The notes beneath the pieces are model-generated. The model was not told the origin of the DNA. It was given only the letters and a program-made list of their open reading frames with translations, and did no database searches. Of a DNA stretch of 64,000 bases, positions 6,923 to 43,295 are shown one piece after another (position 1 is the stretch's first letter; every line of letters starts with the position of its first letter). The position numbers and the translations under genes were made by a program. Origin of the DNA: Thalassobius vesicularis (GTDB lineage: Bacteria > Pseudomonadota > Alphaproteobacteria > Rhodobacterales > Rhodobacteraceae); contig NZ_SSMD01000005.1 of NCBI RefSeq assembly GCF_004799325.1, forward strand, positions 186,001-250,000, read 5' to 3'.

Positions 6923-7870
6923 TTAGCCTTTTTGGCTGTCCGGAAAGTGGTCTTTGCGCTTGCGCGCCAGGTCCAGGGGGTATGACGACAGCAGCCCCTC
7001 CTGGTGCAGCCGGTCCAGCAGGGCGGGGGTGGCGGTGCAGACTTCTTCGTAGAACACGCGCAGGCCCGCCTCGCCGCTTTCGTCCAGCAGCGTGCTGAAC
7101 AGTTGGTGCATCGAGGCGCCGCCCGGACTGGCCGCCCGCAGTTCCGACCGGTACGAGCCCCGGTTCAGCCGGAACCGGAACGCGCGGGCGAAATCCTCCC
7201 ACGATTTGGCGTGCAGGTGCAGCAGTTCTACCCCGGTCAGTTCCTGTTGGCCGGGGTTCTGCTCGCCATTCAGGATCACGTTGTGGATGCGCGCGTCCAG
7301 CCCCGGGATGCCGGTGCGGTAGATCAGCTTGCCCTGCACATGGGACAGGAACCCGCCGTTCAGATGCTCGCCGAACGTGGGGTAGACGCGCAGGGTCTGG
7401 CGGTCGCGGGTGGCGCGCTCCAGCGTGAAGCGTTTGAAGTGGGTCAGCAGGCCGGGGGCCGGACTGGCCAGCGCCTCGGAGGGGCGCATCCGCGCGACAA
7501 GGCAGTCGTCGGGCAGGGCGGCCAGCAGGTCGGGCAGGGGGGCGGCGGGCCAGATCAGCTCGTCCACGTCGATATGGGCCAGCCAGTCCACATCGGGGGG
7601 CAGGGCATAGGCGTGTGCGGCGTTGTCCACCTGCCGGACCTGATGCTTGCCGGGGCGGCGGCCGCGCGCTTGCCAATAGGCGTCATCGCACAACACGGGC
7701 CGGATTTTCGGATGCGCGGACAGGCTGTCAAAGGCAGTGCGGTTGTCGTCGTCCAGATAGATGTACAGCCGCTGCGCCCCCAACTCCAGGTGATGCGCGC
7801 AGAACGCCTCGATCTCGGCCGTCGGGGCCTTGATCGTGCTGACGATGCCCCAGCTGTTGCCCATGCTCAT
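6923..7870 (-). CDS. Glycosyltransferase family 2 protein (Glyco_tranf_2_4-like)
   Basis: Predicted sugar transferase of 315 residues. It opens with GIVSTIKAPTAEIEAF and HHLELGAQRLYIYLDDD, then has HIDVDELIWP with the DxD-type metal/nucleotide-sugar motif, the layout of the glycosyltransferase-2-like family (Pfam Glyco_tranf_2_4). No membrane segment is evident. Start ATG 7870 overlaps the stop of the upstream paralogue (ATGA), so the two are translationally coupled. Longer in-frame starts would run into that upstream gene and are rejected. The acceptor and sugar are unknown. Related domains occur in this window at 7867-9609, 38221-39291, 39293-41596 and 42237-43295. Confidence 0.8.
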   Translation of the reverse strand: MSMGNSWGIVSTIKAPTAEIEAFCAHHLELGAQRLYIYLDDDNRTAFDSLSAHPKIRPVLCDDAYWQARGRRPGKHQVRQVDNAAHAYALPPDVDWLAHIDVDELIWPAAPLPDLLAALPDDCLVARMRPSEALASPAPGLLTHFKRFTLERATRDRQTLRVYPTFGEHLNGGFLSHVQGKLIYRTGIPGLDARIHNVILNGEQNPGQQELTGVELLHLHAKSWEDFARAFRFRLNRGSYRSELRAASPGGASMHQLFSTLLDESGEAGLRVFYEEVCTATPALLDRLHQEGLLSSYPLDLARKRKDHFPDSQKG

Positions 7871-9609
7871 TCCTCCGATCCGGGCAGTGCGCCGAAGTGG
7901 CGGGTCACCTTTGCGTCCAGATCCAGCGGGTAACGCAGCAGCATCCCGTGTTGTTCCAGCGCGGCCACCAGCGCTGGCGAGGCTTCGCACACTTCGGCAA
8001 AGAACGCGCGGATGCCGTCGTCGCCGCTATCGTCTTGCAGGAATTGCAGGATGTCCAGCAGGCGCATCTTGTTCTCGTCGGTCTTGCGGTACGACCCGCG
8101 CGTCATGCGAAATGCCATGTGGTCGCGGAAGAACGGCCAGTCGGGGGCGTGCGCGTGGCCAAGGCGGATCTGGTCGTCCGTCGCCCGGTTGGCGATCTCG
8201 TCCCCGCCCTGAAACGCGCCGTGGATGCCGACGCGGATGCCGTCCAGCCCGCAACGGACAAAGTTCTTGCCTTCGCGGTGGCTGACAAATCCGCCCGGCA
8301 GGTGGGCGCCGAAATTGGGATAGATATCCTCCAGCACGCCGCGCTTGTGACCGGCCTGCGCCGGGGTCAGTTTGAACAGCTCATCGCCCTGACTGCCGGC
8401 CAGCAATTCAGCCGGAGGCAGGCGCAGCATCGCGTCCGTCACCGGAACGGAGGCCAGCAGTTCGCGCATCGGCACCTGAGGCATCAGGAACTCGTCCACG
8501 TCGATATGCGCGATCCAGTGCAGCCCCGGCTGGTAATAGGCCTGCGTCGCCAGATAGGCCTGCCGCATCTGGTGCGCCTTCATCCGAGGCTTTTTCTGCG
8601 CCTCCCAGAACGCGCCGTCGCAGGCGATGACGCTGATCTTGTCGTGGCGCGACAGGTACTCGGCCACGCCGGGTTGCGGGTCGTCCAGATACAGCGTGAC
8701 CCGGTCCGCGCCCAGCTCCAGATGGTGTGCGGCAAACCGCGCGATGTCCAAAAGCGGCGCCTTCACCATCGAGACCGTGCCCCAGCGCAGCCCGTCCGCC
8801 CCTTGCGGCAGGGCGGCGGCGGGCACCTTTGCCATCCGTTCCTTGCGGGTGCGCCCCTTGCGGCGGATGCCCTGCGCCTCGCGCGCGGTGCGCATGTGCT
8901 GGAAGCGGGCGAACAGCGTGGCGGGGTCTTCGATCAGCAGGGTCAGCAGACGGCGGGCCAGCGGGCGCAACACCTTGTCCTTGCTTGTTTGTTCCCAAAG
9001 CGAGGCCAGCATGTTCACGTCCAGCCCGCCATTATCCAGACTGTACGGGTCCATCCGCATCGGCAGTGCAGCGTGGGATTTCTGGCCGTCAAACGGGGTG
9101 TCCGGTGACAGGCCGGAAAACAGTCGCTCGGCCTCGTACAGCTTCATCATCCCGAACAGCACCGACAGCGCCTGACCCAGCTTGCGCTGCGCTGCGTTCT
9201 GACCGTGGTCGCCAAAGGTGGTGACGGCCGAGACCAGCCAGCGCGGGTCAAGCTCGGCCAGCAGAAACGCGGCCTCCTCGGCCCATAGCCGCACGAACAG
9301 CTGCGCGGTGTGGGCGGGCTGTTCCTTGCGGCGCAGGTGGGCGATCAGCAGGCCGTGCAGGTGCAACAGCGCCGGCCGGTCGCCGAATTGCAGCGCCAGT
9401 TCGCGGTACTTGCGGGCGTACCCGCTGCGCGAAATCCCCATTTCCGGCGCGTCGGGGTCGATCAGACGGGTTTTCAGCGAGGCCAGCTCCACGTCCAGCG
9501 GCGGCAGCGCCTCGTCGTCCTCGGTGCTCAGCGCCTCCTGCCGTTCGGCGGCGCGCTTGAGGATGGCGCGGAAACCGCCGGGAAAGGGGGTGAATCTGTC
9601 GTCGCTCAT
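7867..9609 (-). CDS. Glycosyltransferase family 2 protein with helical N-terminal domain
   Basis: A 580-residue protein. Residues 1 to about 265 form a mostly helical, charged region without a motif I recognise. A basic linker (RRKGRTRKERM) leads to a C-terminal glycosyltransferase-2-like domain starting at GTVSMVKAPLLDIARF and containing HHLELGADRVTLYLDD and HIDVDEFLMP. The C-terminal part is clearly paralogous to the overlapping downstream gene. Start ATG 9609 (MSDDRFT) is chosen over ATG 9636 because the latter adds a low-complexity segment. No good ribosome site is seen for either. The pair forms a two-gene operon of unknown acceptor. Confidence 0.78.
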   Translation of the reverse strand: MSDDRFTPFPGGFRAILKRAAERQEALSTEDDEALPPLDVELASLKTRLIDPDAPEMGISRSGYARKYRELALQFGDRPALLHLHGLLIAHLRRKEQPAHTAQLFVRLWAEEAAFLLAELDPRWLVSAVTTFGDHGQNAAQRKLGQALSVLFGMMKLYEAERLFSGLSPDTPFDGQKSHAALPMRMDPYSLDNGGLDVNMLASLWEQTSKDKVLRPLARRLLTLLIEDPATLFARFQHMRTAREAQGIRRKGRTRKERMAKVPAAALPQGADGLRWGTVSMVKAPLLDIARFAAHHLELGADRVTLYLDDPQPGVAEYLSRHDKISVIACDGAFWEAQKKPRMKAHQMRQAYLATQAYYQPGLHWIAHIDVDEFLMPQVPMRELLASVPVTDAMLRLPPAELLAGSQGDELFKLTPAQAGHKRGVLEDIYPNFGAHLPGGFVSHREGKNFVRCGLDGIRVGIHGAFQGGDEIANRATDDQIRLGHAHAPDWPFFRDHMAFRMTRGSYRKTDENKMRLLDILQFLQDDSGDDGIRAFFAEVCEASPALVAALEQHGMLLRYPLDLDAKVTRHFGALPGSEE

Positions 9610-9652
9610 GCCGCGAGAATGGCGCGAGGGCGACACCGCCGCAAGGCCTGCG

Positions 9653-37179: not shown

Positions 37180-38133
37180 TCAGGCGGCGGGAAACTGGAA
37201 CTTGCCCTCGGCTGCGGCCTTTTCCAGCGCGTCCAGCCGGCGGCGGATGCGCGGTGCGTGCATCCGGGCCACCACGTTGCGGCACAGCAGCGTGGCCAGA
37301 TAGGGGCGATCCTGCACGTCCAGCCGCGCCAGCAACCCGCGCAGATAACCGGGGTGATCGCGACGGGCGCGGTACATTCTGGCAAAGGCAGCCGCCGAGA
37401 ACGTCCCGCGCCCCGCCTGGCTGAGGACGGCGAAGAGCAGATCCATCGTCAACAGCTCGGTTTGCAGCGCATCGCCCATGTTGGGCATGCGCAGCTTGGT
37501 CACGTTGGGGCGCGTGAACAGCGAGGCATGCATCGCATCAAGGTGTTCATGCGGGTCGTAAAAGACAAAGACCTGCTCGGCGGCATCCACCATGTCGGGG
37601 CCATAGCCGAAGCGGTCGGTGAACGAGGTGCGGCGCATCTCGGTAAAGCGTTCTTCCCATTCAGTCACGCGCGGGTCCAGCGTGGCCTGCGGCTGCACCG
37701 CCAGCACCGTCGCACCGGGGGCCGCCACCGAGAACGCCGCCGCCGCATAACCGCAGGGGCCGGCGCCGTAGAACACGACGCGCTCGAATTCCTCAAAGAA
37801 CCCATCGTCGATCAGCTGGTCGAACATCGCGTAAACCGCCGGGTCGCGGAACCAGGTGTCGCCGTCCGAGATCAGCGCCAGATGCGACCAGCCATGCTCG
37901 CGCGCGATTTCCCAGCCAAAGGGTTGCGCGGTTTCCGACAGGGCCTGGATGCCCTGATACGACTCGAACGTCACGATCAGTGTTTCGTCCTGGTCAACGA
38001 AGGACGCGAAATGGCGGTCGCCCAAAGGCTCGAAAAACCCGGTTTCCTCCGAGATTTCCTGGAGTTTTCCCAGCCAGGACGGCCGTTTTAGGCCGTTCAT
38101 GGGGGTTTCCAGCAGTTTCTTCAGATCGGTCAT
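37180..38133 (-). CDS. Uncharacterised alphaproteobacterial protein (alpha/beta-fold-like)
   Basis: A 317-residue soluble protein I cannot assign. The middle has VVFYGAGPCGYAAAAFSVAAPGATVLAVQP, which looks like a strand-turn-helix of an alpha/beta hydrolase-like or nucleotide-binding fold but without a clear Ser nucleophile. LALISDGDTWFRDPAVYAMFDQLIDDGFF precedes it. Homologues in Rhodobacteraceae are, as I recall, labelled phosphoadenosine phosphosulfate reductase, but no CysH motif is present, so I do not use that name. Start ATG 38133. Placed between pyrC and the GT operon. Confidence 0.65.
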   Translation of the reverse strand: MTDLKKLLETPMNGLKRPSWLGKLQEISEETGFFEPLGDRHFASFVDQDETLIVTFESYQGIQALSETAQPFGWEIAREHGWSHLALISDGDTWFRDPAVYAMFDQLIDDGFFEEFERVVFYGAGPCGYAAAAFSVAAPGATVLAVQPQATLDPRVTEWEERFTEMRRTSFTDRFGYGPDMVDAAEQVFVFYDPHEHLDAMHASLFTRPNVTKLRMPNMGDALQTELLTMDLLFAVLSQAGRGTFSAAAFARMYRARRDHPGYLRGLLARLDVQDRPYLATLLCRNVVARMHAPRIRRRLDALEKAAAEGKFQFPAA

Positions 38134-38220: not shown

Positions 38221-39291
38221 CTAGGGCTTTGTAGGGGGCTTTGTGGACAATTCCTGTGCGCGCCGGGCATGCTGGGTCAGATAGCGCGCGGCTTGCGGCG
38301 GAACAGGGCGCGCGGGCGGGGTCATCATCAGCCGCCCCATCAGCGCGCGATAGGGTTCATGTTCCAGCAACTCGACCAGCCGGGATTTGCGCCATGCCAC
38401 AGCGTTTTCATGCAGCTCGGCCAGCACCGGATCGGCCATCAGCGCCGCCAGTTCCGCGCGCATCTTCGGCGTCATCGCGTGGATCGAGCGATCCTCCTCC
38501 ACGCACCAGTTCCGTTCGACCCAATAGTCCATGCCCAGCATGTGGTCGGAATGCACGGCGCGGCCACGATCGGCCTTCAGCAGATAACTCTCCATCGCGC
38601 CCAGCGGATAGTGGTTCAGCTGCGCCAGCTTGTAGTTCGGCTGGCCGTAATTGCTGAAAATCCGCGTGGTCTTGAACTTGTCGTCCAGCTCGCGCCCTTC
38701 GCCATCGAACCAGCGCGCGTCCGCCAGCCGGTCGGCGCGCGGCTCGCGTGGGCGGTGGACGCCCAGCTTGCCGTAAGAGCCGTCATTGCGATGCAGCGTC
38801 TTGAACATCGCGCTGCGCCACGGCCAGTACAGGATTTCGGGGGCTGCATGGGTGAACTGCTCGGTGATCGGCTTGTCCTCGTAGGGTACGATCCCGGCAT
38901 TGCCGAACAGCCGCCATGTCAGCGTGATCGCGGTCGCCTCGGGTAGGGCGCGGGTCAGCGCCTGTACGGTCCGGTCGCCCACATGGATGTTGACGAATTC
39001 GTCCACGTCCAGCGGCAGCACCCAATCCGCCCGCCGCACCACCGGCAGGTCCGAGGCCCGGTTCAGCGCCGTGAACTGGATGCCCTGCGCGTCATACGGC
39101 CCCTCGTTACGCTTGTGCACGACCAGCCCCATCTCGGCCAGCCGGTCCAGCATCGCATCCGTGCCGTCCTGGCAGTCGTTCGAGAACACAAGGAATTCGC
39201 CGAACCCGCAGGCGCGGTGATGCGCCAGCCATTCCAGCAGAAAACCCGCCTCGTTTCGCACGCTCAGGATGGCAAGGAAGGTGTCGGGCAT
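38221..39291 (-). CDS. Glycosyltransferase family 2 protein (Glyco_tranf_2_4-like)
   Basis: A 356-residue predicted glycosyltransferase. It starts FLAILSVRNEAGFLLEWLAHH, with FGEFLVFSNDCQDGTDAMLD and the metal motif LDVDEFVNIHVGD near residues 92-104. The C-terminal half (KTLHRNDGSYGKLGVHRP, LNHYPLGAMESYLLKADRGRAVHSD) is shared with the other paralogues in this operon. No membrane helix. Start ATG 39291 lies one base after the stop of the upstream fusion gene. Last gene of a four-gene unit; acceptor unknown. Confidence 0.83.
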   Translation of the reverse strand: MPDTFLAILSVRNEAGFLLEWLAHHRACGFGEFLVFSNDCQDGTDAMLDRLAEMGLVVHKRNEGPYDAQGIQFTALNRASDLPVVRRADWVLPLDVDEFVNIHVGDRTVQALTRALPEATAITLTWRLFGNAGIVPYEDKPITEQFTHAAPEILYWPWRSAMFKTLHRNDGSYGKLGVHRPREPRADRLADARWFDGEGRELDDKFKTTRIFSNYGQPNYKLAQLNHYPLGAMESYLLKADRGRAVHSDHMLGMDYWVERNWCVEEDRSIHAMTPKMRAELAALMADPVLAELHENAVAWRKSRLVELLEHEPYRALMGRLMMTPPARPVPPQAARYLTQHARRAQELSTKPPTKP

Positions 39292-39292
39292 C

Positions 39293-41596
39293 TCAGCTAT
39301 CCATATCCAGCGCCAGCGCCCAGGCGACGCGTTCCGTTTCGGTCAGTTTCACCGCCAGCGCCTGTTCATAGAGCTCCTGAAACTCGGGCATGGCGTGCAG
39401 TTCATCCGCCTTGGCGCGGTGCCATTTCAGCCCGCGCTCGTGCAGGTCACGCAAGGCGTCATCCTGCATCAGCCGGTCATATTCAGCCCTCACGCGCGGG
39501 ATGTTGCGTTGGATCGTCAGGTCGCGGTGGTCGTTCCAGTCCATCCGTATCCAGTAATTCAACCCGATCGAGCGGTCCACATGCAGCGCCCGCCCGCGTT
39601 GGCGTTTGACCAGAAAACTCTCGGCCGAGCGCAGCGCGTAATGGTTCAGCTGGATCAGGTCATAACCGATGGATTTTTTCGAGCTGCGCCAACCATTTCG
39701 GATCGCCTCGCCGGTCATGTCCTGACCCGATCCGTTCACCCATTTCACCTGCCCCTCCATCCCGTCGGTCAACTTGTTGGGGCGGTGGCAGCTGAGCTTG
39801 CCATAGGCGCCGATATTGCGGAACAGCGTCTTGAAGCCCCAGACGGTGTGCGGCTTGGGGCAGAATTTCGGGGCGCAGCGGTCGAATTGCTCGATCACGA
39901 AACGGTCGGCCAGATTGGTGACGCCCGAATGGCCGAACAGCCGCCATGTCATCGCCACGTTGGTGGCATCCGGCACGGCGTCAAACAGCGCGGCCAAGGT
40001 GCCGTTACCGCAGCGGATATTCATGAACTCGTCCACGTCGATATGTGCGATCCATCTGGCGGCCTGCATCACCGGCTCTTTCAGCGCCTGATCCAGCGCG
40101 TATTGCTGGGGCGAGTTGCCTTTCCACGCGTCGTTATTGCGGTGGGTGATGATGCCCATCGCGTCCAGACGGGTCAGGATTTCCTCGGTCCCGTCGCTGC
40201 AATCGTTTGAGTAGATGAGGAAATTTTCCACCCCGATCGCGCGGTGATAGGCGATCCATTCAACGATATAAGGCGCCTCGTTCTTCATGCAGCCGACGAT
40301 GACGGTGCCGGTTTTTGCCTCGCTCGTTGGATAGGCGGGGCCGGGGACGCCTTCGTTGATGCTGCCCAGCCGGTCATGCGGCTTGAACGAGGAATGTTGC
40401 AACCGCGCGAAATTCTCCAACGCCTGAGGCGGCATCAACGCCTGCGCCTGTGCGCTGGGGCCGTTGGTGGGCTTGGCAGCGGACGGGCGCGCGGCGCGTT
40501 TCTCGGTCCGGGTGTGGCGGTCGATCCGGGCCATGAAGGCCAGCAGGTATTGCGTCGCGCGATAGCCGTTTTGCGGGTCGTCCTCTTGCCACGCGGGCAG
40601 GGGGGCGTCCGGCGTCAGGCAGGAGGCCAACGCGGGGTTGGCGGCGATCAGCGCGGCGTTCACCTCCGCGAACCCCTCGGAAATCGCGGCCAGAGACCCC
40701 GGTGCAATCGGCGGGCCGTCCAGCGCGATCTCCTCCATGAACCCTTTCCACAGCTTGCGCGAGACGATCCGGTCTGACCGTGCCAGCAGCCGCAGCAGCA
40801 GGTCGTTCAACTGCCGCCCCCGCGCCACATGCGCCGCAGATGGGGCGGACGTCTCGGCCTCCTCGGCCTTGCCGATCTGCGCCTCGATCCCGAATGCCGA
40901 GCGGAGTTCATCTGTCACCAGCTCAGACCCGAACAGCACCGCATCATAGGGCCGCAACGTGACCGACCCCGCGCCGAACACCGCCTCCCACTCTTGCACA
41001 AGGCGCGGGTAGTCCAGCCAGAAGGCGGGGCATTGGGTTTCCTGAAACTGCGCCTTTTCAGGCTCGATCCGGTGCCCGTCCAACAGCGCGTCGTCCCACC
41101 AATCGGCGCTGCCCGCCATCTCCTGCTCCAAGGCCAGCGAGGCGGCGCGTCCCTCCATCACCTGTTGTGCATAGTGGCGGGCCAGCAGGCGGGCCTGTTC
41201 GTCCACATGGGCGATGATGCGGATGTCCTGCGACAGCGGCAGCAGCAGATCGCGCAGCCGTTCCAATTCCGAGGGCCGCGACAGGCCGCACAGCTGGCTG
41301 CACGACAGGATCAGCACCTCGGGCTTGTGCGTCTCGACCTCGGACGCCAGTTTGCGCGCCAGATCAGTGCGCAACTGCTCTTGCACCGATGCCTCGCCAA
41401 AGCCGCGCGCGTGGCGTAGCGGGTCGACATGGTCGGGGTCCGTTACGGCCATGAACAGCCGGGTATGGTTCCGCGCCCCCGGAGAGCGCGCGTAAAGAAA
41501 CCCCTTACCGATCAGCTGCTCGCGCTTGGCGGCCAGAACCTCTTGCAGTCGCGCGGCGCCGCATTGTTCCAGCCCGATATGTAGATCAATACGCAT
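39293..41596 (-). CDS. Fusion: sulfotransferase-like domain plus family 2 glycosyltransferase
   Basis: A 767-residue two-domain protein. Residues 1 to about 310 look like a sulfotransferase fold (HIGLEQCGAARLQ at 6-18, KREQLIGKGFLYARSPG, LRPYDAVLFG), but the phosphosulfate loop, usually HIGxxKTGTT, is degenerate with EQCGA in place of KTGTT. After a linker, residues from about 430 form a glycosyltransferase-2-like domain: VGCMKNEAPYIVEWIAYHR, FLIYSNDCSDGTEE and HIDVDEFMNIRCG. Start ATG 41596 shares one base with the upstream stop. A longer frame to 41779 reads through that gene and is rejected. The N-terminal domain may bind rather than catalyse. Confidence 0.78.
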   Translation of the reverse strand: MRIDLHIGLEQCGAARLQEVLAAKREQLIGKGFLYARSPGARNHTRLFMAVTDPDHVDPLRHARGFGEASVQEQLRTDLARKLASEVETHKPEVLILSCSQLCGLSRPSELERLRDLLLPLSQDIRIIAHVDEQARLLARHYAQQVMEGRAASLALEQEMAGSADWWDDALLDGHRIEPEKAQFQETQCPAFWLDYPRLVQEWEAVFGAGSVTLRPYDAVLFGSELVTDELRSAFGIEAQIGKAEEAETSAPSAAHVARGRQLNDLLLRLLARSDRIVSRKLWKGFMEEIALDGPPIAPGSLAAISEGFAEVNAALIAANPALASCLTPDAPLPAWQEDDPQNGYRATQYLLAFMARIDRHTRTEKRAARPSAAKPTNGPSAQAQALMPPQALENFARLQHSSFKPHDRLGSINEGVPGPAYPTSEAKTGTVIVGCMKNEAPYIVEWIAYHRAIGVENFLIYSNDCSDGTEEILTRLDAMGIITHRNNDAWKGNSPQQYALDQALKEPVMQAARWIAHIDVDEFMNIRCGNGTLAALFDAVPDATNVAMTWRLFGHSGVTNLADRFVIEQFDRCAPKFCPKPHTVWGFKTLFRNIGAYGKLSCHRPNKLTDGMEGQVKWVNGSGQDMTGEAIRNGWRSSKKSIGYDLIQLNHYALRSAESFLVKRQRGRALHVDRSIGLNYWIRMDWNDHRDLTIQRNIPRVRAEYDRLMQDDALRDLHERGLKWHRAKADELHAMPEFQELYEQALAVKLTETERVAWALALDMDS

Positions 41597-42240
41597 CAGA
41601 CAGGTTCCGCCGCGGGGTCGACGCCGGGATTGCGGTTGGCCTTGCCCCACCAGCCGATCTCGATCCCCAGAAACGCGCCCAACTGCGCGCGCGCGTCCGC
41701 GGCCTGCATGTCCAGCAGCAGAAACTGCGGGCTGTCCTGAAACAGCCGCTCCAGATGCGCGTAATGGGCGCTGATCCATTGCGTGCGCTGTGCGTCCGTC
41801 GCCCCGTAGCCGCGCGGCAGGCCCGGCACATGGCCGTCCGGCAACCGTTCACTGCCCAGGTTTGACCACCGCAAGATCGAGCTCGACATCGCCGTCGCAG
41901 GCCGCCACGAGGCCACGAACTTCGCACCGGGATGGTGGCTGCGGATCGCCTCGATCAGGCCGAAATCCATCTGCGGCCACAGCGAATGCCCCTCGCGCAG
42001 GGTACTGAGTTCCGAGAACCCGTCGAACAGATCCAACCCGTGCAGCGGATCGCCGGTTTCGAAATAGCCGCGATACATCAGATCGCCCAGAAACGCGTCA
42101 TGCAGGCTCTTGTCCGGGGTCTGGCGTTTGCGGATGCGGTAATCGGCCACGCGCAAACCAGACAGGCGCAGCGCCCGCGCCAGCGTCGTCGTGCCGGATT
42201 TGGGCAGGCCCAGATTGATGATGCGCAGTCGCTCGCTCAT
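41596..42240 (-). CDS. Sulfotransferase family protein (P-loop)
   Basis: A 214-residue protein with the 5'-phosphosulfate loop LGLPKSGTTTL (residues 10-20) and a likely 3'-phosphate region FVASWRPATAMSSSILRWSN. This fits PAPS-dependent sulfotransferases that modify sugars or lipids. Short for the family but complete. The start overlaps the stop of the upstream glycosyltransferase (ATGA) and its stop overlaps the fusion gene by one base, so it is a core member of the operon. Substrate unknown; the operon suggests a surface glycan. Confidence 0.8.
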   Translation of the reverse strand: MSERLRIINLGLPKSGTTTLARALRLSGLRVADYRIRKRQTPDKSLHDAFLGDLMYRGYFETGDPLHGLDLFDGFSELSTLREGHSLWPQMDFGLIEAIRSHHPGAKFVASWRPATAMSSSILRWSNLGSERLPDGHVPGLPRGYGATDAQRTQWISAHYAHLERLFQDSPQFLLLDMQAADARAQLGAFLGIEIGWWGKANRNPGVDPAAEPV

Positions 42241-43295
42241 GCCTCGACCCCCAGTTTGGCCATCAGCGCCAGTTCGGCGTCGATCAGGGCAGGGGCCGTG
42301 AGCAGCTGGTCGCGCATCTGGCGGTACGCGTCCTGCTGCATCAGCGCATCGCGCCGCGCCCGGTGGCGGGCCACGCAGTCGTCATGCAGGGCGGCAATCT
42401 CGGGGTCGGATTTCAGCCGCGCAATCTCGGCCTCCAGCGCCGGCAGCATCCGCAGGATCGAGGTCTCCTCAACCCCGCCGTCATTCCGTTCCCGCCAATA
42501 GGTATCGTCAAAGGCGCGGTTGGCGCGGTTCACGTCGCCCCTGTCGTTCTTGACCAGATAACTGTCCAATGACCGCAGCGCGTAATGGTTCAGTGTCGCG
42601 AAATCGCGCGCGCCCTTGGCCGGAAACTTGCGGATGCGGCGCGGATTGGCGGCGATCAGGAACTTGTGCGGCACCTCGCGCCCCGATCCATCCGTCCAGC
42701 GCGGGTGCTTGCGCGGAGGCAGCTTCTCTCGGAAAAACGGCCGATGCGCGCCGAAGTATTTCAACGGGAAATCCTTGCGCATCAAGGTCTTGACCTCGAT
42801 CGCCAACTCGCCGCACCAGATGTCGGGGTTATGTGTCCGCCTGAATTGCGCAATGACTGGGCGGTCCTCGTGCCGCTCAACCCCGGCATTGGCGAAAAAC
42901 TGGAACGTGACCGAGATCGCCTGAGGATCACCACAAGCCGCAATCAGCGCCGGGATGGTGTGATCGCCCACATGGATGTTCAGAAACTCGTCCACATCAG
43001 CGACCCAGACCCAATCAGCGCCGCTGATGACATCCTGCTTCTGCGCATCGCGCAGCGCCTCCATCTGGTAATTCCGCCCCTCGGCCGGGTTCGGCAGATG
43101 CCGCACGATCCTCCGCGCCGCCAGCGCATCCAGCAAGGCATACGTCCCATCCGTGCAATCGTTCGAGTAGAACAGGAAATCGCGCACCCCGATCACCCGC
43201 TGATAGGCGATCCATTCCAGCAGGAACGGCCCCTCGTTCTTGACGCAGGTAACGGCGGCGATCCGCATCGCGCTCTGATCGTGTTGCTCACTCAT
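42237..43295 (-). CDS. Glycosyltransferase family 2 protein (Glyco_tranf_2_4-like)
   Basis: First gene of the operon. It begins MSEQHDQSAMRIAAVTCVKNEGPF, with FLLEWIAYQR, DFLFYSNDCTDGTYALLD and VADVDEFLNIHVGD, the same domain as its paralogues at 38221 and 39293. The C-terminal part has LNHYALRSLDSYLVKNDRGDVNR. About 352 residues from ATG 43295. ATG 43310 and ATG 43268 are also possible; none has a good ribosome site. Divergent from the moxR-like gene, with 170 bases between that should hold both promoters. Confidence 0.8.
   Translation of the reverse strand: MSEQHDQSAMRIAAVTCVKNEGPFLLEWIAYQRVIGVRDFLFYSNDCTDGTYALLDALAARRIVRHLPNPAEGRNYQMEALRDAQKQDVISGADWVWVADVDEFLNIHVGDHTIPALIAACGDPQAISVTFQFFANAGVERHEDRPVIAQFRRTHNPDIWCGELAIEVKTLMRKDFPLKYFGAHRPFFREKLPPRKHPRWTDGSGREVPHKFLIAANPRRIRKFPAKGARDFATLNHYALRSLDSYLVKNDRGDVNRANRAFDDTYWRERNDGGVEETSILRMLPALEAEIARLKSDPEIAALHDDCVARHRARRDALMQQDAYRQMRDQLLTAPALIDAELALMAKLGVEA

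Follow-up and report, generated by a model that had tools for sequence, protein, structure and literature searches.

A conserved glycosyltransferase–sulfotransferase cassette with an apparent pseudo-sulfotransferase fusion in Rhodobacteraceae

Introduction

GalS1, a plant glycosyltransferase of family GT92, is a galactan synthase. Among sulfotransferases of solved structure, SgdX2 and Cpz8 are natural-product enzymes, and in NDST, which shares its fold with the heparan 3-O-sulfotransferases, the sulfotransferase domain is joined to a deacetylase. Sulfated glycans of marine bacteria come, in the accessible parts of two reports, from large capsule loci: in Vibrio sp. KMM 8419 and in Cobetia marina KMM 1449, such clusters hold about 70–80 genes, among them nucleotide-sugar genes, ABC export genes and genes for 3′-phosphoadenosine 5′-phosphosulfate (PAPS) (PMC11641403, PMC11766843). 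The locus analysed here is a small operon of four genes, A to D, in a 64,000-nucleotide stretch of the Thalassobius vesicularis genome (contig NZ_SSMD01000005.1; hereafter the window). It encodes a glycosyltransferase (A), a predicted sulfotransferase (B), a sulfotransferase-like domain fused to a glycosyltransferase (C) and a further glycosyltransferase (D). A conserved gene E follows D, and a methyltransferase gene F lies between C and D in many relatives.

The C-terminal part of C has the fold of GalS1 (PDB 8d3t, 8d3z), and PF01697 with a retained DxD motif is found in A, C and D. Unlike GalS1, to which C is 15% identical, these proteins are bacterial, occur as three paralogues per operon, and one of them is fused to the apparent pseudo-sulfotransferase. 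B resembles SgdX2 (8y9p), Cpz8 (9kf1/9kf2) and family PF17784 in fold over nearly the whole protein (Z about 14–15) and shares the 5′ loop Lys and the 3′ Arg and Ser with PAPS-dependent sulfotransferases, but its identity to SgdX2 and Cpz8 is 14–17% and it sits in a glycosyltransferase operon. The N-terminal domain of C has the fold of the heparan 3-O-sulfotransferases and NDST (6xkg, 1nst, 8ccy; Z about 14) and, as in NDST, is joined to another glycan-modifying domain; here, however, the partner is a glycosyltransferase, and the PAPS-binding residues are missing.

With the Vibrio and Cobetia capsule loci, as the accessible text describes them, A–D shares the combination of glycosyltransferases and PAPS-type sulfotransferases in the setting of a marine bacterial glycan, whereas it differs in its small size, a single operon that keeps its place beside housekeeping genes. 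No polymerase, exporter, nucleotide-sugar or PAPS gene was found among the examined neighbours (three genes on each side, with the same flanks in relatives). By these flanking genes, the A–D locus does not qualify as a sulfated capsule or exopolysaccharide biosynthetic cluster. In titles and abstract openings, a coverage that leaves out most subscription papers, no description of the A–D locus or of a pseudo-sulfotransferase–glycosyltransferase fusion was found. With a probability of about 0.62, A–D together with E, and often F, constitute a cytoplasmic cassette of marine Rhodobacteraceae/Roseobacteraceae that decorates a glycan supplied by other loci with three residues and one sulfate.

The N-terminal domain of gene C

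The N-terminal half of gene C has no Pfam match. A model of the whole protein (positions 41596–39293, minus strand, 767 residues) has a mean predicted local distance difference test (pLDDT) score of 89 and contains two clear folds, the orientation of which is uncertain given a predicted template modelling (pTM) score of 0.55. In this model, residues 1–330 match the bacterial sulfotransferase 3rnl with Z 15.1 over 235 residues, and a profile alignment ties the domain to free-standing sulfotransferase-like proteins of the same bacterial family.

The PAPS-loop Lys of such enzymes is found in none of 53 aligned rows of the domain, window included, and in none of 114 distinct sequences with a recognised loop (the loop went unrecognised in three further sequences). 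At the position of the 3′-phosphate Arg, 46 of the 53 rows have Asp or Glu and a single one Arg, while the 3′ Ser is replaced by Arg in 42 rows and kept in three. The loop Lys is likewise lost in ten C rows from regions without an adjacent B. By comparison, the free-standing relatives (21 open reading frames (ORFs) from 20 loci, picked among the weaker matches of the C N-terminal domain) retain the loop Lys and the 3′ Arg in 20/21 cases each, with one gap each, and the Ser in 12 of the 13 aligned. Owing to the complete absence of the Lys and the near-complete absence of the Arg, the domain is classed with pseudo-sulfotransferases rather than enzymes: it seems to be a conserved sulfotransferase fold without PAPS-binding residues. 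The first-pass annotation of this DNA had listed a sulfotransferase and a sulfotransferase-like/glycosyltransferase fusion; both sulfotransferase folds are present and B is predicted to be active, but activity was rejected for C because its PAPS site is lost where the free-standing relatives keep it.

Other residues of the domain are strongly kept, which argues against decay and for retention to another purpose. G149 and R150 are present in 53/53 rows, and G8, G32 and R150 are invariant across orthologues. Most rows also agree in what replaces the PAPS-site residues: Asp or Glu instead of Arg, and Arg instead of Ser. Most likely, the domain binds the acceptor or B. If so, the fusion would exemplify an inactive sulfotransferase that is retained as a binding or scaffolding domain. 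In one genome (G009, locus L080, which is absent from the rows above) C is spread over two frames, owing to either a frameshift or a sequencing error.

Gene B, a predicted PAPS-type sulfotransferase

In Pfam, gene B matches PF17784 (Sulfotransfer_4) with an E-value of 1.5e-5 across 30 residues only. Its model (pLDDT 91) is closest to SgdX2, with Z 14.9, and to Cpz8, with Z 14.2 and PAP in one of its entries, followed by Schistosoma sulfotransferases (Z 13–14) and tyrosylprotein sulfotransferases (Z about 11). The top 28 fold matches are all sulfotransferases, with Z from 10.7 to 14.9, and P-loop kinases reach Z 10.3 at most. In an alignment comprising 128 distinct B sequences and that of the window, K14 and R113 are conserved in 141/141 rows and S121 in 139/141. 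We take these to be the PAPS-contacting positions of known sulfotransferases, i.e., the Lys of the 5′ loop and the Arg and Ser that contact the 3′-phosphate. Since they are kept, B is predicted to be a catalytically competent, PAPS-type sulfotransferase.

The solved-fold relatives of B and C were reached through models only. Sequence searches of the PDB with B, C and E, both as single proteins and as profiles, gave no convincing match; C gave major histocompatibility complex matches, E a designed helix bundle and B a Schistosoma sulfotransferase (E about 1), all of which were left unused.

In three other genomes (L051, L052 and L068; L204 and L220 duplicate the first two), a relative of B is fused to a second sulfotransferase-like domain, in which the loop Lys is, by eye, replaced by Arg, Arg or Cys. 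All three second domains match free-standing sulfotransferases by BLAST; against the profile of the C N-terminal domain two of them score weakly (16.8 and 11.9 bits) and that of L052 does not match. These fusions look as if the pairing of an active with a dead sulfotransferase were a theme.

Three paralogous glycosyltransferase domains

PF13704 is matched by A (E 1.2e-20), by residues 438–536 of C (3.8e-22) and by D (2.6e-23), with scores of 74–83 bits against a curated cut-off of 27.5, and the GT92 family PF01697 is above its cut-off too (26–39.5 bits against 23). The three domains had initially been called mutual paralogues, and their pairwise identities of 36–41% (E 5e-78 to 4e-54) bear this out. 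Both Asp residues of the motif that is presumably the metal-binding DxD of glycosyltransferases (DVDEF in A) are retained in all 132 rows of A, which include the window and shared genomes, and in 117/117 rows of D; the corresponding DVDE is kept in 54/54 rows of the glycosyltransferase part of C. The comparison with solved GT92 folds covered C, of which residues 428–711 of the model match GalS1 with Z 16.6 over 228 residues (root-mean-square deviation 3.3).

A tree of 54 glycosyltransferase rows (17 of A, 15 of C, 17 of D and five others) places A, C and D in separate groups with support of 100/100, 98/99 and 96/99, respectively. Because its bootstrap was unsettled and long branches were flagged, the tree, which leaves out three glycosyltransferase loci of the own genome (L001, L006, L008), was used for this grouping alone. 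As A, C and D each group separately, they had probably diverged from one another before the sampled genera did. A second, distant pair of mutually overlapping PF13704 glycosyltransferase ORFs lies at 6923–9636 of the window, also on the minus strand; in its upstream ORF (7867–9636), about 290 residues without a Pfam match precede the glycosyltransferase domain.

Co-inheritance and gene order

The distribution of the genes was surveyed in a family sample of 248 genomes and a class-level sample of 289 genomes. In the latter, B was matched in three genomes, namely the own genome, one family member and, weakly (6.7e-4), a genome of another family. Within the family sample, roughly one genus in four has the A–D block. 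Gene A has a match with E ≤ 1e-80 in 68 genomes, the query with the C N-terminal domain identifies 65 strong carriers (E 1e-42 or better; weaker matches are other sulfotransferases), and B is matched in 66 genomes, in 64 with an E-value no higher than 1.9e-16; all three are absent in 179. A is present in all 65 carriers of C and B in 60 of them, while 60 of the 64 B carriers have both A and C in the same genome; hypergeometric values computed for this co-occurrence take no account of phylogeny. The three A carriers without a strong C match comprise one in which C is matched weakly next to A and B (G056), one with a fragment at a contig end (G118) and one with an assembly that is 62% complete (G212).

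The 68 B matches consist of the window's own, 60 fetched loci and seven others (full-length genes in G056 and G046, two second copies and three partial or weak matches). The order A-B-C is seen in 54 of the 60 fetched loci, including two in which C is cut or split, and the typical context is A-B-C followed by D-E-pyrC-pyrE, with moxR-coxE-xdhC divergent and upstream. In four fetched loci B stands alone, and the same genomes contain A-C-D elsewhere without B. Among named loci, the best 80 of 291 confirmed matches, A-B-C occurs in order in 71 and B alone in five. Ten regions picked for a C without adjacent B have the arrangement A-C-(F)-D wherever the contig extends; one of them (L117) is a contig break, with A and B of the same genome at the end of another contig (L100). 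In eight regions picked for an E without A-C, E adjoins pyrC, and D is present in four.

This survey of gene order and co-occurrence points to A and C as the core, B as a near-constant companion, F as optional and D–E as a separable, independent part. Independent shuffling or loss, which the first-pass annotation had named as evidence against a single system, was found in part: A and C were not separated, with A in all 65 C carriers, whereas B can be missing or displaced and D and E occur without A-C. The A–D set thus appears to be inherited mostly, but not wholly, as a block. Its extent had been put at four genes; the conserved unit is larger, with E usually after D and a methyltransferase between C and D in many relatives.

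Four minus-strand genes with overlaps of four and one bases and a single-base spacing, as originally described, are confirmed by the raw sequence and its translations. A ends at 42237, within the ATGA that opens B at 42240; the stop codon of B (41598–41596) gives its A to the ATG of C at 41596; and the stop of C ends at 39293, with D beginning at 39291. Among loci measured in other genomes, which belong almost entirely to other genera, 50 of 56 share the 4-base overlap of A with B, and 47 of 53 have a B/C overlap of one or four bases. The corresponding counts for the named loci, which have 12 B proteins in common with the family-genome set, are 68/75 and 66/72. Recurrence across genera indicates tight packing beyond chance, and chance packing of A–D was ruled out.

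Proposed function and alternatives

In the proposed cassette, three metal-dependent, GT92-like transferases, namely A, D and the C-terminal domain of C, would add residues to an acceptor; the analogy with GalS1 makes galactose-type residues a possibility. B would sulfate the same glycan with PAPS from a synthase encoded elsewhere in the genome, and F, where present, would provide an optional methylation step. The glycan itself would be begun, polymerised and exported by genes outside the A–D locus. A to E contain no strongly hydrophobic segment (top 19-residue mean 1.49), which fits soluble enzymes; their site is presumed to be cytoplasmic. Tentatively, and with odds clearly below even, the pseudo-sulfotransferase domain of C could hold the sulfated or unsulfated acceptor, or dock the active B, and thereby couple sulfation to the next sugar transfer.

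The first-pass annotation had proposed a compact system for building and sulfating a surface glycan. A compact, co-inherited set of glycosyltransferase and sulfotransferase genes is indeed present, but with moxR/coxE/xdhC and E/pyrC/pyrE as flanks it is not the whole system, and we infer, rather than observe, a sulfated product at the cell surface. Since the cassette keeps the same chromosomal position in roughly one in four genera sampled from a family rich in marine bacteria, many roseobacters may have its product as a common surface feature.

Several points weigh against the proposed cassette. PF13704 and the sulfotransferase folds leave donor and acceptor unfixed, and B could target a lipid, a protein or a small molecule. 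B is missing in five of the 65 genomes with A and C and lies outside the operon in four more loci, suggesting that A-C-D can do without B-dependent sulfation. The examined genes include no linked polymerase or exporter, and with nucleotide-sugar genes also lacking there, the locus is not a self-contained pathway. The arrangement of the two modelled domains in C is uncertain, the hydrolase fold of E (perhaps an alpha/beta-hydrolase-like domain without a Ser nucleophile) is a candidate assignment, and the near-universal APS kinase (see PAPS supply) does not point to this operon.

The lack of a polymerase or exporter among the neighbours would also suit a cassette that adds its sugars and sulfate to a glycolipid of the membrane, or to lipid A/core, instead of to a polymer. 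Three glycosyltransferases, one sulfotransferase and an optional methyltransferase, i.e., three sugars and one sulfate, are consistent with a small, fixed oligosaccharide, and the stable address is unlike that of the Vibrio and Cobetia capsule loci in the accessible parts of their descriptions (PMC11641403, PMC11766843). No lipid-related Pfam family is found in A–E, however, and this alternative is considered unlikely.

It is still less probable that B sulfates a small molecule or protein and that its link to the glycosyltransferases is regulatory or historical. Its closest solved folds are the natural-product enzymes SgdX2 and Cpz8, with Schistosoma and tyrosylprotein sulfotransferases next, and B is found elsewhere in the genome in the four displaced loci, three of which carry it as a fusion with another sulfotransferase-like domain. 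These observations are set against the start/stop overlaps of B with both glycosyltransferase genes, kept across genera, and the company of A and C in 60/64 B carriers. Finally, an active C N-terminal domain with unusual cofactor contacts is very improbable: the retained fold (Z 15.1), the selection implied by the invariant G8, G32 and R150, and the residual 3′-site Arg and Ser in one and three rows are countered by loss of the loop Lys in 53/53 rows and 114/114 recognised sequences and by the replacement of the 3′-site Arg (Asp/Glu in 46/53) and Ser (Arg in 42/53), which the free-standing relatives keep.

Locus layout and neighbouring genes

The features are listed in Table 1. Gene A has two candidate starts, 43295 or 43310. 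In the window, three genes on each side were assigned by Pfam, xdhC, coxE and moxR on one side and E, pyrC and pyrE on the other; moxR, pyrC and pyrE are labels given from the Pfam class. NCBIfam has no match for A–D and one, far below the cut-off, for E. Recent horizontal acquisition or a mobile element left no sign: the GC content of the A–D region (0.625–0.657) is inside the range of the window, the flanks are constant, B has no match in a plasmid collection, and a PHROGs search was empty.

Table 1. Genes and domains of the A–E region, in window coordinates
Feature	Coordinates	Strand	Basis
Gene A: GT92-like glycosyltransferase (PF13704), 352 aa	42237..43295	minus	Pfam, DVDEF metal motif
Gene B: predicted active sulfotransferase of the PAPS type, 214 aa	41596..42240	minus	PF17784, model, K14/R113/S121
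Gene C, N-terminal domain: apparent pseudo-sulfotransferase, residues ~1–402 (fold match 1–330)	40391..41596	minus	model, loss of PAPS-loop Lys
Gene C, C-terminal part: glycosyltransferase, GT92-like (fold match starts at residue 428)	39293..40390	minus	PF13704/PF01697, GalS1 fold, DVDE
Gene D: GT92-like glycosyltransferase, 356 aa	38221..39291	minus	Pfam, metal motif
Gene E: conserved neighbour, no Pfam match above cut-off	37180..38133	minus	conservation, fused relatives

Gene E is matched at E ≤ 0.001 in 192 of the 248 family genomes, often several times and in some cases distantly. A Loktanella plasmid encodes a fusion in which an E-like domain follows a PF13704 glycosyltransferase, with rfb genes alongside; in a fusion on a plasmid of Paracoccus albus, the partner is a sulfotransferase (PF13469), and glf and glycosyltransferases lie next to it. 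Such fusions back a role of E alongside these enzymes. The sequence of E has what we take to be the motif shape of an alpha/beta-hydrolase, and one fused relative has sub-threshold S9/abhydrolase matches. The position of the Ser nucleophile is Gly in 108/111 rows of E and never Ser, whereas both fused E-like forms have Ser there.

The window has no methyltransferase F between C and D. In relatives, the C–D gap exceeds 500 bases in 28 of 49 loci, and F was identified there by BLAST in 38 of the 67 named loci having both C and D. A methyltransferase motif is seen in 24 of 27 ORFs picked between C and D; the other three look like wrong-frame picks. Two examples of F were scanned, and both match PF05050 (FkbM) above the cut-off, one also PF02475.

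PAPS supply

PAPS synthesis genes, which the first-pass annotation had proposed to look for, are present. The single match to adenosine 5′-phosphosulfate (APS) kinase in the own genome lies within an ATP sulfurylase–APS kinase fusion on a different contig, so the genome is predicted to be able to make PAPS, the sulfate donor. APS kinase was rejected as a discriminating partner of the operon, since it is found in 232 of the 248 family genomes and its near-universal presence makes no specific link.

The PAPS synthase, outside the window at about 184583–186664 of G000:C1 (L233:1084-3165), has an in-frame N-terminal MarR_EPS regulator domain (TIGR04176, 90 bits against a cut-off of 88), which points to a link between the control of exopolysaccharide and the supply of PAPS. 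Similarly long PAPS synthase frames (690–797 aa, by open-frame length alone) occur in 51 of the 248 family genomes. B is present in 22 of these 51 compared with 42 of the 197 others (Fisher p 0.002, phylogeny ignored).

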